From Nocardiopsis eucommiae (lineage in GTDB: Bacteria; Actinomycetota; Actinomycetes; Streptosporangiales; Streptosporangiaceae), in contig CP074402.1 in NCBI GenBank assembly GCA_018388625.1, positions 5,084,001 to 5,148,000 on the forward strand: a stretch of DNA of 64,000 bases, read 5' to 3'. The notes under the pieces are model-generated. The model made no database searches. It worked only from the letters and a program-made list of their open reading frames with translations, and had not been told where the DNA came from. Position 1 is the first letter of the stretch. Each line of letters opens with the position of its first letter. This document shows, piece by piece, positions 20,882 to 27,575 of the stretch. A program made the position numbers and the translations under genes.

Positions 20882-21730
20882 ACGCCCTTCCTCCCGTTTC
20901 ATCGGCCGTGGCCGGTTGCCCGGCGTCTGGCGCCGGGCCTTGGTCGAGTCCCGTACATCGTCTGGATTCTGTAACCGTACCGAGCCACCGCCGGAGTCGG
21001 TCAAAATCCGCGTACATCATGGCGGAAAACACCCGGATATGCAGTTCCCGCACCGGTTTTCGCCGCCAAAAGTGTTGTGGCGGTTGATCCTGGGACGTGT
21101 GTGGTGCCGTCGTTCGGTTCGGGTCTGACAGTAGCGGTGCCGGGGACCTCCCGACAGGGCCCACCGCCAGGTTCGGCCAACCCGCAGACCAGAGGCCCCG
21201 TACGGGTCCGGTCCCACGGCTCCCCGACCCGCGCCGGGCACCCCGTGCCGTCCCGAAGGCGATCGGCGCCACGTTGTCGGTTCCGTGAGGGTCTGGCAGA
21301 ATGGACCCGTTGGGTGTCTAAGACGCAGACACACACGACCGCCCCGGGCGGTGCCCTGACCTCCTCAGGTGCCCCGGTGGCTCGAACTCCCTTTCGACGG
21401 TCGTTTGGTGTGGTCTCATGCGTCCTTCCCTTCCTCTCTTCTCCTCTCCGGTCTCCACCGTCCGTGCGCGCCGCGTACGCGCGGCGCTCCGTGCCGCCCG
21501 CCATCCCCCTCCACCGGGCCCCGATCCCGGACGCGTCCTCCGCTGAACCGTCCGCCACGATCCCCCGGTCCCGCCGCCCCGTACCCGGGCGGCACCGGCG
21601 CCACCGCGGCCGCCGGCGACGGACCCACCGCGCAAGCCCCGCCCGGGAGGATTCCGACTCCCCGCTCCGGAGTCCCACCGGGCCCATCCACGACGGACAC
21701 CACGGCGGTGTCCAAGGAGTCCAAAGCCCA
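20882..21730. other. 850-bp intergenic region
   Basis: No protein-like frame. Its main readable feature is the promoter at 21274-21302, which would give the glycosyltransferase a leader of about 420 nucleotides. Open frames through 21370-21730 are Pro/Arg/Ser-rich shadows. Confidence 0.45.
21274..21302 (+). promoter_or_regulatory. sigma-70-like promoter TTGTCG-17-CAGAAT
   Basis: -35 TTGTCG at 21274-21279 and -10 CAGAAT at 21297-21302, spacer exactly 17 bases, pointing towards the glycosyltransferase. Confidence 0.45.
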
Positions 21731-23003
21731 GTGAAGATCGCCATGGTCGCCGAACACGCCAATCCCCTCCCCGCTCACCGGGGCGAACCGGCCTGCCCCG
21801 CGAGCCTGCACGTGTGTGCCCTGTCCCGCCAGCTCGCCAAGCGCGGGCACCGGGTGACCGTCTACGTCCGCCGCAGTGACCCCGACCAGCCCGACGGCCG
21901 CACCCGCATGGCGCGCGGCGTCTCGGTCGCCTACCTCGACGCGGGGCCCGCCCGTCCGCTCTCGGAGGACGAGCACGCCGAGCACACCGGCGCCTTCGGC
22001 ACCGCGCTCGCCGCCGTGCTCGACGAGGACGTCCCCGACGTCCTGCACGCCATCGGCTGGACCAGCGGTCTGGCCGCACTGCACGCCCAGGCGCACAGCG
22101 AGAAGGACCAGAGCGGGACCCCGATCGTCCAGACCTTCCACTCGCTCAACGCCAGCGAGCAGCGCTCCGGCCTGCCCGACCGGCCGGACCGCGCCCGCAT
22201 GGAGACGATCCTCGCCGCGCGCGCCGACCACGTGCTGGTCAACTCCACCGACCAGCAGGGGAGCTGGCCCGCCTGCGCGTGCCCCGCCACCACGTGAGCG
22301 TCGTGCCGTTCGGCGTGGACCCCGACCACTTCAGCGTGGAGGGCAGCGCCTCCGCCGAGCCGTGGCACTCCCGCCGCGAGGAGCGCGCCCGACTGGTCTC
22401 CGTGACCTCCCTGACCGAGGCGGGGGCGCCCGGCGTCTGGTCGAGTCGATGGTCCGCCTGCCCGAGGCCGAGTTGGCGCTCGTCTCCACGGCCGAGGACC
22501 AGGAGGTCGCCCTGGACGAGAACGCCCGCGGGATCGAGCTGCTCGCCAAGGAGCTCGGCGTGGACGACCGCGTGCACCTGACCGGTCCGCTGGAGCGCAA
22601 GGAGCTCCCGCGCCTGCTGCGCTCGGCCGACGTGTTCGTGTCGGCCGCGTCCTACGACCCCTACGGCGGCGCGGTCCTGGAGGCCATGGCCTGCGGACTG
22701 CCCGTGGTGGCCACCGCCACCGGCGCGGTCCCCGGGGCGGTCCTGCACCGCACCAGCGGGGTCCTGATGCGCTTCGGCCGTCCCGACGAGGTCGCCCGCT
22801 CGGTACGCGCCGTGCTGAACACGCCCACCATGAGCACCGCCTACGGGATCGCCGCGGTGGACCGCGCCCGTTCCCGGTTCACGTGGCAGCGGATCGCCAT
22901 CGAGACGGAGCTCGCCTACGAACGTTCCCGTCCACAGCTGGCCGCGCGCGACGAGATCGAGGAGGATGAGGCGGACCTCCTCCTGTCCGGTTCCCCCAAC
23001 TGA
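21731..23003 (+). CDS. GT4-type glycosyltransferase, two frameshifts
   Basis: Retaining GT-B glycosyltransferase. The N-terminal domain begins VKIAMVAEHANPL and includes LHVCALSRQLAKRGHRVTVYVRR; the C-terminal nucleotide-sugar domain has LLRSADVFVSAASYDPYGGAVLEAMACGLPVVAT, the E-x7-E-like donor motif. One G is missing at 22258-22261 and another at 22422-22426; with both restored the sequence reads continuously from VNSTDQQG through PRHHVSVVPFGVDPDHF to RLVESMVRLPEAELALVS. GTG 21731 has AAGGAG upstream. Seventeen bases separate it from the next gene. Acceptor unknown. Confidence 0.85.
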
Positions 23004-23020
23004 ACGGTCCGCCCACACCG

Positions 23021-23997
23021 ATGACCTTCGAACACCAGGGACTCCTCTTCCGCCATGAGAGACGGTTCCACGACGTGGCGTCGGAGCGGCTGCGATCCGC
23101 CGTCCGCGCCGACGCCCACGTCGTGCTCTCCGTCGCCGACCCGACCCCGCTCCTGAACGGGCTCGACCGGCACGAGCGAGGCAGGGTGGAGGTCATCGGG
23201 AGGGACGACCTCTACGAGGCCCCTGGGCGCACTCTGGCCGCCCTGCACCGCTTGGCCCTCCTCCACGGCCCGGGAGAGGTGAGCGTCGTGGCCGAGCCGC
23301 CACTGGCGCCGCTCGTCCACGGACCCACGATGGAGCTGCGCGAGTGGCACCGTCTGGAGTCGGTGTTGAGCACCGCGTTGGCGCCGATGCGCATGCGGAT
23401 GCTGTGCGTGCACGACGAGCGCTCCCTGGGGCCGGGGGTGCGGGCCGCGATACGGGCGACGCACCCGACGCTCGTGGGCGAGGCGGGCCCGCGACCCAAC
23501 CCCGCGTACCGCGGAACGGAGGCCTTCGGCCAGCGGCCGCTCGCGCCGGAACCGCTCTCCGTGCGGGGACCGGTGCACCGCCTGGAGATCGGGCAGTCGC
23601 TCCCCGGCTGCGCGAGGAGATCGCGTCGCTCGCGAGCGCGGTCGGTCTGCCTCCGAGCCGCGTGGACAGCATGGTCGTGGCGGTGAACGAGCTCGCGGCG
23701 AACGTGCTCGAACACGGCGCGGGCAAGGGCAGCGTCCACCTGTGGCGGGCGCCGGACCGGTGGGTGTGCGACGTGTTCGACGAACACGGCGACCTCAGCG
23801 ATCCGCTCGCCGGATACCGCCCGGCCGACACGCTCAGGTCGCGCGGCTACGGGCTGTGGATCACCCGGCAGACCTGCGACTTCCTGGAGATCTGCGGCAG
23901 CGGCGAGGGGTCGCTGACCCGGCTCCACTTCGTCGATCCGACGCGCGCGGACTCGGGCCGCACGGGGTGCGGCCGGAGTGCCGGGGTCAGCCCTTGA
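23021..23997 (+). CDS. MEDS-domain plus HATPase anti-sigma-type regulatory kinase, frameshifted
   Basis: About 325 residues. The N-terminal 190 residues (RHERRFHDVASERLRSAV; DLYEAPGRTLAALHRL) resemble the MEDS sensory domain. The C-terminus is an RsbW-like HATPase_c_2 domain with the N-box MVVAVNELAANVLEHGAG and G-box RGYGLWITRQTCDFLEI. One C is missing at 23602-23605; restoring it joins the halves as GQSLPRLREEIASLASAVGLP. Such proteins bind a sigma factor and a STAS antagonist in turn; a STAS gene faces it, overlapping by 11 bases at the 3' ends. ATG 23021 has no clear Shine-Dalgarno. Confidence 0.8.
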
Positions 23998-25397: not shown

Positions 25398-26550
25398 GTG
25401 CCGGAGAAACTCGCCAGACTGCAACGGGAGATCGCCGCTCTGAGTGAGCGCATCAGCGCCCTGCGCAGTACGCACGCCATGTACCCCGACGACGCCCGGG
25501 GCACCGCCGAGGCCGCCCTGGCCGAGCTGGAGTACGCCGAACGCCTGCTGGAGTCCGCCGGGTCGGAACTGGCCCGGTCGCACAGCGAACCCCCGAGCCA
25601 CGCAGACCTGCCGACGAGGGCGACCGCGCCCTGCTGCGCGCGGTGTTCAACGAGCTCAGCGTGCCCGTGGTGCTGCTCGACCACGACGGCTACGTCCGCA
25701 GGATCAACGGGGCCGGGGCCACCCAGCTGGGCAGTGCGCCCGGCTACCTCACCGGCAAGCCCTTCACGCACTTCGTGGACCTGCGCAAGCGGGCCGCCAT
25801 GCAGTCCTGGCTGGCCGCCGTCCTGCGCGGGGACGGTCCGGCGCACCTGGAGTCGAGGCTGGCCCAACGCGGCTGGGCGGAGGACGTGCACCTGACTCTC
25901 ACCCGCCTGGAGCTGCCCACCGAGGCGCAGCCGCTGGTGCTGGTGGCGATGTCACCGCCCATGAGCGGGACTGAGGAGGAGGGCCCCGCCCCCTGGAGTC
26001 CGAGGTCGAGGACCAGGTGGTCGTTCTGGCCGCGCGGCGGCTGGACGTGCTCACCCGGATGACCCGGCTGCTGCTGCGCGGCACCACCCCGACCCGGGAC
26101 CTGGCCCTGACGGACGCCGCCGACCTCCTGGCCGACTCGTACGCCGACTGGGTGATCATCGACGTCTGCGACCTGCCCGAGGGTCCACGGGCGGCCCGCC
26201 GCGCGGCCGTGGTCGGCCCCGCCGACGCCCCCGAGGGGCAGCGCGAGGAGGTCGCGGGGCTCACCCCCGGCGACTCCGACATCCCCGGCGAGGTGCTGGG
26301 CCGGGGCCAGTCCCTGCTCTTCCCCCTGATCGAGGACGAGACGGTCCTGGGCCACTCGGGGAGCGGCGCGCCCCTCCTGTCGGCCCTGGGCGCGGGTTCG
26401 CTGCTGTCCGTCCCCCTGAGGGGCAGCCGTGGCGTACGCGGAGCCCTCACCCTGATCCGACGCAGCAACCGGGGCAGCTTCCGCCTCGCCGACCTCGGAC
26501 TCATCGAGGAGATCGGCGAGCACATCGGGCTGGCGCTCCCGGCCCGCTAG
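25398..26550 (+). CDS. PAS and GAF domain sensory protein, two frameshifts
   Basis: About 385 residues. A short N-terminal coiled coil (KLARLQREIAALSERISALRS) leads to a PAS domain (FNELSVPVVLLDHDGYVRRI; GYLTGKPFTHFVDLRKR) and a GAF domain (LLLRGTTPTRDLALTDAADLL; GSLLSVPLRGSRGVRGALTLI). No kinase or output domain follows, so it probably works by protein-protein contact. Frame is restored by one C at 25611-25612 and one at 25989-25993. GTG 25398 has GGGAGA six bases upstream; ATG 25380 is the alternative. Ends 21 bases before the palindromic element. Confidence 0.75.
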
Positions 26551-26571
26551 AGGTGTTGGCTGTGCTTGTTG

Positions 26572-26925
26572 TGCATCTCCGCTTCGCTTCGATGCGTGTT
26601 CGGGCGCCCGGAAAGGCAGGAACCTTCGGCACCTGCGGTGTGATGGCTCGTTCCTCGCAATCCCACCTCCGGCACCTCCAGAACCCTGCCGGCGCCCGAA
26701 CGAAAGCACCCCCTGGTGGCCTCGGGCCCTGAGCGGGACTCACGACTGTGGTGGACGTGAGTCCCGCCCACACACCTCCACCACAGGGGGTACCCGTTCG
26801 GGCGCCGCCAGGGTTCTGCAAGACGAGTCAAGCCGCCAGCGAGGAACGAGCCAGGCACAGACGAGGATGAAGAACAGCTGGCTTCTTAGGCGCCCGAACA
26901 CGCATCGAAGCGAAGCGGAGATGCA
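26572..26925. repeat. 354-bp nested palindromic element with 37-bp perfect terminal inverted repeats
   Basis: Terminal repeats 26572-26608 and 26889-26925 are perfect inverted copies of 37 bases, starting TGCATCTCCGCTTCGC. On the same axis (about 26748) lie further inverted blocks: 26645-26658 with 26838-26851 (14 bases), 26678-26702 with 26795-26819 (about 24 bases, one mismatch), and 26733-26744 with 26755-26766 (12 bases). GTTCGGGCGCC or its complement occurs four times at near-equal spacing. No protein frame fits. It lies between convergent genes and could be a MITE-like element, a very large bidirectional terminator, or a structured RNA. Confidence 0.85.
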
Positions 26926-26936
26926 AAGAAGTGCTT

Positions 26937-27575
26937 CTACTCCGGCCCGTGCAGCGTGTCCACCAGGGTGGACAGCCGTGAGGCCGACCGGTCGACCCTG
27001 CGGACGGCGTCCACGAGCGGCTGGTCGACCTCCTGGTAGTTGTCGACGATGTGCTCGCGCAGGGCGGCGAGGTCGGTCTGGACCTGGCGGGAGCGCTGGG
27101 CGAGCTGTTCGGCCAGGACCCGGCCGGGTTCGCCGGTCTCCTGGTTGAGGACCCGCTGGAGCGACCTGGCCTGTTCGCGCATCTGTGCCTTGAGCTGGTG
27201 CAGCTCCACGAACACCTCGACCTTGGAGCGCAGCACCCACGGGTCGAACGGTTTGATCAGGAAGTCCACCGCGCGTGACGAGTAGCCGCGGAAGACCTGG
27301 TGCCGATCGACTTCCTGGGCGGTCAGGAAGATGATCGGCACGTCCTTGGTCTTCTCGCGCTGCTTGATGTGCGCGGCGGTCTCGTACCCGTCCATGCCCG
27401 GCATGATCACGTCGAGCAGGATGACCGCGAAGTCGGTGCCCAGAAGGTGCTTCAGCGCCTCCTCACCGGAGTTGGCCCGGACCAGGTTCTGGTCGAGGGA
27501 CGTGAGGGCCGCCTCCAACGCGATGAGGTTCTCGTCGCGGTCGTCGACGAGAAGGATGTTGGCCTTCTGAGTCAC
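26937..27575 (-). CDS. osaB: response regulator with C-terminal coiled coil, OsaB-like
   Basis: 212 residues. REC domain at about 1-125 with acidic pair in LLVDDRDEN, phospho-acceptor Asp in VILLDVIMPGMDG, Thr in FLTAQ and Lys in LIKPFD. The C-terminus is a long helix (ELHQLKAQMREQARSLQRVL) rather than a DNA-binding domain. This matches the Streptomyces coelicolor OsaB type, needed for osmoadaptation and encoded next to a HAMP-repeat hybrid kinase. It begins six bases after osaA ends, so the two form an operon. Confidence 0.85.
   Translation of the reverse strand: MTQKANILLVDDRDENLIALEAALTSLDQNLVRANSGEEALKHLLGTDFAVILLDVIMPGMDGYETAAHIKQREKTKDVPIIFLTAQEVDRHQVFRGYSSRAVDFLIKPFDPWVLRSKVEVFVELHQLKAQMREQARSLQRVLNQETGEPGRVLAEQLAQRSRQVQTDLAALREHIVDNYQEVDQPLVDAVRRVDRSASRLSTLVDTLHGPE

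Follow-up and report, generated by a model that had tools for sequence, protein, structure and literature searches.

The window, a stretch of 64,000 nucleotides from the genome of Nocardiopsis eucommiae (contig CP074402.1, positions 5,084,001 to 5,148,000), holds a nested palindrome between two convergent genes (Table 1). An open reading frame (26017-26550) ends to its left, and to its right lies osaB (26937-27575), a response regulator gene named as in the original prediction, which adjoins a gene for a HAMP-rich hybrid histidine kinase and whose protein shares 90% identity with its best named match, in Nocardiopsis lucentensis. The convergent flanks and the short distance to the osaB stop were confirmed, with 11 nt separating position 26925 from it. 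Among inverted repeats with arms at most 600 nt apart, the palindrome ranked first in the window. Folding compared with dinucleotide shuffles gave z-scores of -13.2 and -14.0 on the two strands, and none of 100 shuffles equalled it. The 37-bp perfect inverted ends, the inner blocks in register and the four occurrences of GTTCGGGCGCC were likewise borne out by the sequence and by repeat searches, and the four occurrences form one inverted pair in each of the two units described below.

Table 1. Features of the palindrome locus in window coordinates.
Feature	Position	Strand	Basis
TAG stop of the left convergent open reading frame	26548-26550	+	sequence, gene caller
Unit A (core type 2), made up of the T-rich lead at 26562-26572, both hairpins and the beginning of the C-rich tail	26562-26713	+	covariance model R1, full-length match, 163 bits; alignment A1
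Left 37-bp perfect inverted end: hairpin 1 and start of hairpin 2	26572-26608	+	sequence, repeat search
Hairpin 1 of unit A: stem GCATC/GATGC, loop TCCGCTTCGCTTC	26573-26595	+	sequence; helix 1 of the family shows compensated stem variation
Hairpin 2 of unit A: GTTCGGGCGCC to GGCGCCCGAAC, conserved loop GGCTCGTTCCTCGC at 26645-26658	26598-26701	+	sequence, alignment, pairing test
Centre: tails of both units, with an inverted repeat of its own	26714-26783		sequence, repeat search
Unit B, core type 1, on the osaB strand, beginning directly after the osaB stop	26784-26935	-	mirror in L001; stop distance
Right 37-bp perfect inverted end	26889-26925	-	sequence, repeat search
TAG stop of osaB	26937-26939	-	sequence, gene caller
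Outer arms, 48 nt, 90% (perfect 37-nt ends inside)	26572-26619 / 26878-26925		repeat search, window
Inner block pair, 15 nt, 100%	26644-26658 / 26839-26853		repeat search
Inner arms, 41 nt, 80%	26679-26719 / 26778-26818		repeat search
Innermost pair, 17 nt, 88%	26746-26762 / 26770-26786		repeat search

The palindrome consists of two units of about 150 bp placed face to face. Each unit follows the same plan of a T-rich lead (GTGTTTnCTTT), hairpin 1 with a five-pair stem and the loop TCCGCTTCGCTTC, hairpin 2 running from GTTCGGGCGCC to GGCGCCCGAAC around the loop GGCTCGTTCCTCGC, and a C-rich tail. With the T-rich leads included, the composite spans 26562-26935 and is wider than the originally given 26572-26925. 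The 37-bp ends had been taken for the terminal repeats of one element, which they are not, being the outer parts of two whole facing units. Unit A corresponds to G000:C1:5110562-5110713 in genome coordinates by its covariance model match, and its sense strand is that of the left open reading frame. The 37 perfect base pairs arise because both arms carry the same version of hairpin 1. Fixed spacing despite diverged sequence, which had been read as selection on the blocks, was observed as described, and it is explained by the arms belonging to two core types, since the sequence between the blocks then differs with the blocks still in register. At three other places of the same genome (L027, L030 and L031, at 4735850-4735960, 5903560-5903760 and 4604440-4604540, respectively), units are flanked by tandem repeats (CACAGGCGTGAGTCCCGCCC.CACACCTCCAC, about 33-35 bp), and the palindrome centre is built of the same sequence.

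Similarity searches in the 6.1-Mb genome of the window yielded 70 matches at E <= 1, in part overlapping, and 17 separate places at E <= 2.1e-6. Most of these matches were half-length, and only two others were nearly full-length (88% over 22-380 and 74% over 16-370); inspection of the copies showed the half to be the real unit. Two-armed composites occurred three times in this genome, the window copy included. Across genomes, DNA similarity at E <= 0.001 was present in 35 of 60 among the matches listed, comprising 34 of 37 genomes of the genus (own genome included) and 1 of 23 outside it, the latter with a weak match of 8.6e-4. The covariance model of core type 2 extended the family, among the matches listed, to at least 37 of the 140 genomes scanned in the order, with 30 belonging to the genus and 7 to four further genera of its family; copy numbers from this model are lower bounds, with at most 22 candidates scored per genome. 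Units were found by their loop motifs in loci fetched by similarity to the window, a procedure that misses degenerate copies. Most copies were single, and others stood in head-to-tail order with a spacing of 134-141 or about 201 bp or formed opposed pairs. Two core types and at least two versions of the outer stem were distinguished, with the hairpin loops nearly invariant across the family.

A chance palindrome or an assembly artefact, which had been named as a way for the prediction to fail, is practically out of the question, since dozens of other genomes contain homologous units and the own genome has three composites. The assembly itself carries signs of indels that would speak for an artefact. 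Adjacent or overlapping same-strand frames at 21730-23003, 23020-23997 and 25642-26550 look like single genes broken by frameshifts, which, together with a genome completeness of 84% in two contigs, suggests assembly indel errors. Plasmid and phage collections gave no match at 1e-5, and a plasmid or phage source was rejected, as the only similarities at E up to 1 were two weak plasmid matches from other phyla (E 0.1 and 0.3). No description of this repeat family was found in the mainly open-access literature covered.

Mobility was assessed by joining the flanks of 13 units and seeking the joined sites in seven relatives, by which 11 loci were fetched and 20 counterparts compared. Among the matches listed, 19 of the 20 counterparts were empty and one held an internally deleted copy, and each of the 11 loci had an empty site. 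Judging from these filled and empty sites, the units are mobile. The deleted copy type is illustrated by L256 (G002:C12:139500-140150), in which hairpin 2 is deleted and the lead, half of hairpin 1 and the tail are left behind the stop as a solo-like remnant. Genes ended at the identical codon in filled and empty sites, which rules out a stop codon provided by the element. What stands downstream of the stop in an empty site was retained in the filled one and had an inverted repeat of its own at several loci (both by eye). No regular target-site duplication of fixed length was seen at the 11 loci in comparison with their empty sites, in agreement with the original prediction; a 19-nt direct repeat with one mismatch, spanning the stop, occurred at one locus. 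By eye, the true unit ends of some copies matched over only 6-10 nt or so.

The position of units relative to genes was recorded with genes called by a codon-usage script trained on 16 open reading frames of the window, not with annotation. Duplicates were removed by identical stretches under a rule that varied slightly, giving 104 units, 99 with both neighbours and 83 on the same strand. The upstream gene lay on the strand of the unit for 86 of 104 units and was divergent for 18. Arrays with both neighbours were convergent in 40 of 78 cases and divergent in 3, and the baseline in the window was 9 convergent and 9 divergent among 51 neighbour pairs. Hairpin 1 began at most 18 nt past the stop in 46 of 81 same-strand units with both neighbours, against 11.7 expected under random placement of each unit within its own gap (maximum 24 in 5000 trials). 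Counted by distinct same-strand upstream genes, a unit lay within this distance for 34 of 50, and the nearest unit was farther away for 16. The two ends of the unit behaved unequally. Where a gap left 60 nt or more free, the lead end was at a stop in 32 of 67 cases vs. 2.7 expected (at most 12), and in 1 of 48 cases vs. 6.9 expected the other end lay at a stop on the opposite strand. A coding frame ended at the lead in 48 of 129 cases vs. 0.45 (at most 3) at shifted places. The first set contributed 44 of 99 to this count and the set added from more distant relatives 4 of 30; the link to stops is thus weak in the latter.

Among the 46 stop-proximal units, the lead started 1-5 nt past the stop in 39, most commonly at 4, and the stops were TAG in 28, TGA in 18 and TAA in none. 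Counted per gene family, TAG made up 22 of 34 vs. 50 of 156 other genes (p 7e-4), using one gene per family in the background, which avoids repeated orthologues of the osaB locus. The shortage of TAA was not significant on the same count (0 of 34 vs. 6 of 156, p 0.59). That any TAG or TGA could serve as a target was not supported, as units away from stops mostly had no such triplet at the lead by eye. In four species, units stood 12-15 nt past the stop of one PDZ/protease-like gene. Their stem and core versions differed, which suggests that units were inserted or replaced at this stop more than once.

At the osaB site, the loop of the long hairpin lay within 600 nt of the osaB stop in 13 of 30 genomes, one record of which reaches only 28 nt, and the gap between osaB and its neighbour was tiny in several relatives. 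Tandem units on the osaB strand were present in G018 and a single unit on the strand of the neighbour in G002, G017, G019 and G024, and only the window genome had units on both strands. The window palindrome is therefore a local state of a site that was hit in several ways. Hairpin 1 of unit A begins 22 nt past the stop of the left open reading frame, outside the usual 11-15 nt. An origin from two independent insertions at its own two convergent stops is weakened by the same two-armed arrangement, centre included, at two further places. The palindrome may have arrived as a composite, in which case its place would say little about the insertion of single units.

A second, unrelated palindrome family of about 55 bp (TGATCTTGCTACCAG ... 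CTGGTAGCAAGATCA) was noticed at the 3' flank of osaB in L071, L072 and L074 (genomes G007, G003 and G014, respectively). Among the matches listed, it had 119-191 exact half-sites in these three genomes and occurred in at least 12 of 40 genomes of the genus, with none in the window genome. Opposed half-sites of this family 1.2-1.9 kb apart (G014:C1:1719199-1720391 and 2681013-2682903) could bracket a full element.

Pairing was strongly kept within the repeat units. In 47 distinct units of core type 2, 36 pairs were formed in 96.6% of cells vs. 85.8% after shuffling, and two-sided changes were found in 22 of the 36 pairs and 166 cells vs. 14.0 and 40.7 shuffled, in a test that favours the structure as it was predicted from the same alignment. 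Sliding the partners lowered pairing to 36-53%. These pairing counts, like the covariance model, refer to type 2 only. The consensus fold of core type 1 was poorer, with 21 pairs of which 7 had two-sided changes, because two versions of the outer stem were mixed in it. Mismatches on the sense strand comprised 19 G.U and 39 A.C, or 14 and 26 without two poor pairs (p 0.08). Conserved pairing agrees with the proposal of a structured RNA, but RNA of the sense strand is not favoured because G.U showed no excess over A.C. Rfam gave three matches in window positions 26000-27500, all below the gathering score. Selection on a folded DNA strand, or template-switching repair between arms, would fit the pairing data.

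A rival explanation is a 3'-UTR structure selected in place, in which units would serve as terminators without a U-tract or as protection of mRNA ends, and their proximity to stops would reflect function or survival and not the choice of a target. Units on the strand of the gene and beside its stop agree with it, as does the excess of convergent over divergent arrays. At one locus, an arm base was changed in the units of G019 and G002 and restoring changes were present in the other arm in G002 (by eye), which also speaks for such selection. Bacterial hairpins within 80 nt of stops and lacking a U trail are reported to terminate transcription in PMC8355165. However, filled sites keep what follows the stop in the empty site, sometimes with an inverted repeat of its own (by eye), the sense strand lacks the expected G.U excess, and selection alone does not require a lead that starts 1-5 nt past the stop. 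On balance, this explanation is unlikely.

Candidate movers were sought in the genomes of the genus. Y1_Tnp was not found in the own genome, which is 84% complete, and a Y1 transposase occurred in 13 of 40 genomes of the genus and in none of the copy-rich G018, G032, G003 and G004, while none of 20 Y1 loci carried the unit motif. REP or BIME sequences moved by a REP-associated Y1 transposase (RAYT) would share with the units their extragenic, alternating and tandem palindromes and their hairpins. Yet a Y1 transposase is neither present in the own genome nor tracks the family, and this origin was rejected as highly improbable. RVT_1 was detected in 12 of 40 genomes of the genus, with none in the own genome or in the copy-rich G018, G032, G003, G002 and G019, and like the Y1 genes, reverse transcriptases do not follow the distribution of the family. 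No mover was thus found among these candidates. As a separate observation, G007 and G014 had 22 and 10 reverse-transcriptase matches, respectively, many of identical score, which are possibly expanded group II introns.

An autonomous copy was sought in three genomes, in which the hairpin 1 pattern was present at 21, 25 and 16 places, and no convincing inverted pair at transposon distance was found. The suggestion of a MITE-like element is therefore only partly sustained: dispersed copies and empty sites agree with it, but a regular target duplication and, in the three genomes, an autonomous copy were missing. If the unit were an ordinary MITE mobilised by a DDE transposase whose preferred target is most frequent at the stops of a GC-rich genome, this would account for mobile, dispersed units without an open reading frame and for a weak match of the ends (TGTTT...AAACA) in some copies (by eye). 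Such a near-symmetric element should insert both ways, yet stops are linked to the lead end only. The absence of a regular target duplication at the 11 loci and of a parent in the three genomes also counts against it, as does the observation, by eye, that units not placed at stops mostly lack a TAG or TGA triplet at their lead, and it is considered quite improbable.

The reading preferred here is that the palindrome is a two-unit composite of a non-autonomous, hairpin-forming mobile repeat of Nocardiopsis and its near kin, with orientation-specific insertion close to stop codons, to which a probability of about three in four is given. An enzyme acting in trans would move the unit, its lead end would be joined just 3' of the stop codon, and the route would perhaps read a folded single strand. 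A single-strand mechanism that reads the hairpins is a tentative suggestion, somewhat doubtful in itself. It is favoured by the unequal behaviour of the two ends, the lack of a regular duplication, the fixed orientation to the target and a pairing that is kept without a sense-strand preference for wobble pairs. A DDE transposase is the main alternative as mover, and other routes could be envisaged. Several points count against the preferred reading, namely the 4 of 30 stop contacts in the more distant set, the 16 of 50 upstream genes whose nearest unit is farther off, the 18 of 104 units with a divergent upstream gene, the use of called genes in place of annotation, the failure to find a mover and the 22 nt before hairpin 1 of unit A. 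The window palindrome probably acts as the 3' end of both transcripts or at least leaves that end undisturbed, and the giant bidirectional terminator of the original prediction may be a side effect.

MIRUs of mycobacteria, which like the Nocardiopsis units occur singly or in tandem, are the nearest known analogue. According to PMC12548453, they insert at start codons and have an internal open reading frame coupled at -4 nt; as described there, they resemble the Nocardiopsis units as short, non-autonomous, apparently mobile actinobacterial repeats that are anchored to a codon at a gene end. In contrast to that description, the Nocardiopsis unit is anchored to the stop, more often TAG than TGA, lies after it, often between convergent genes, and forms a covarying double hairpin. 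Insertion at start codons was not seen in the Nocardiopsis family, whose units lie after stops (TAG in 28 of 46) with the next gene often convergent or distant. REP/BIME and REPIN sequences are also extragenic palindromes in single, tandem and opposed order, whereas the Nocardiopsis unit is longer (about 150 bp), anchored to stops and not accompanied by a RAYT. REP hairpins are also described as bearing a conserved tetranucleotide tag (GTAG/CGTC). MITEs share the non-autonomous, dispersed state and empty sites in relatives, but the Nocardiopsis unit has no regular target duplication, weak terminal repeats, an orientation tied to the target and no parent found in three genomes. The family is thus not filed as MIRU on account of its anchor, structure and plan, as MITE for want of a regular duplication or parent, or as REP in the absence of a RAYT.

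Two further systems are comparable in part. The attC sites of integrons, which are characterised by R-box motifs and an integrase, are folded repeats of about 60-140 bp after the stop codon of the cassette gene, and a folded repeat after a stop codon is the feature they share with the Nocardiopsis units; the genes beside the Nocardiopsis units, however, stand at conserved loci with empty sites. Elements of the IS200/IS605 type transpose as single strands with subterminal hairpins, an asymmetric target and no target duplication, but differ in that their Y1 transposase does not accompany the Nocardiopsis family.

More broadly, and at somewhat less than even odds, the units might represent a kind of mobile bacterial DNA that recognises the stop codon when it inserts. 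Such a folded element of about 150-190 bp would insert in one orientation a few nt 3' of a stop, TAG more often than TGA, would settle at gene ends without breaking genes and may take over the end of the transcript, and its opposed pairs would form giant palindromes between convergent genes. Guidance of insertion by stops, if real, would give mobile DNA an inherent safe-harbour rule in genomes that are compact and GC-rich, and the question would become which machinery recognises the stop codon, at the level of DNA or RNA. Sister species offer empty sites at which such a rule can be tested directly. If true, it would also show where some giant palindromes between convergent genes come from and would supply naturally varied 3' ends of actinobacterial genes.
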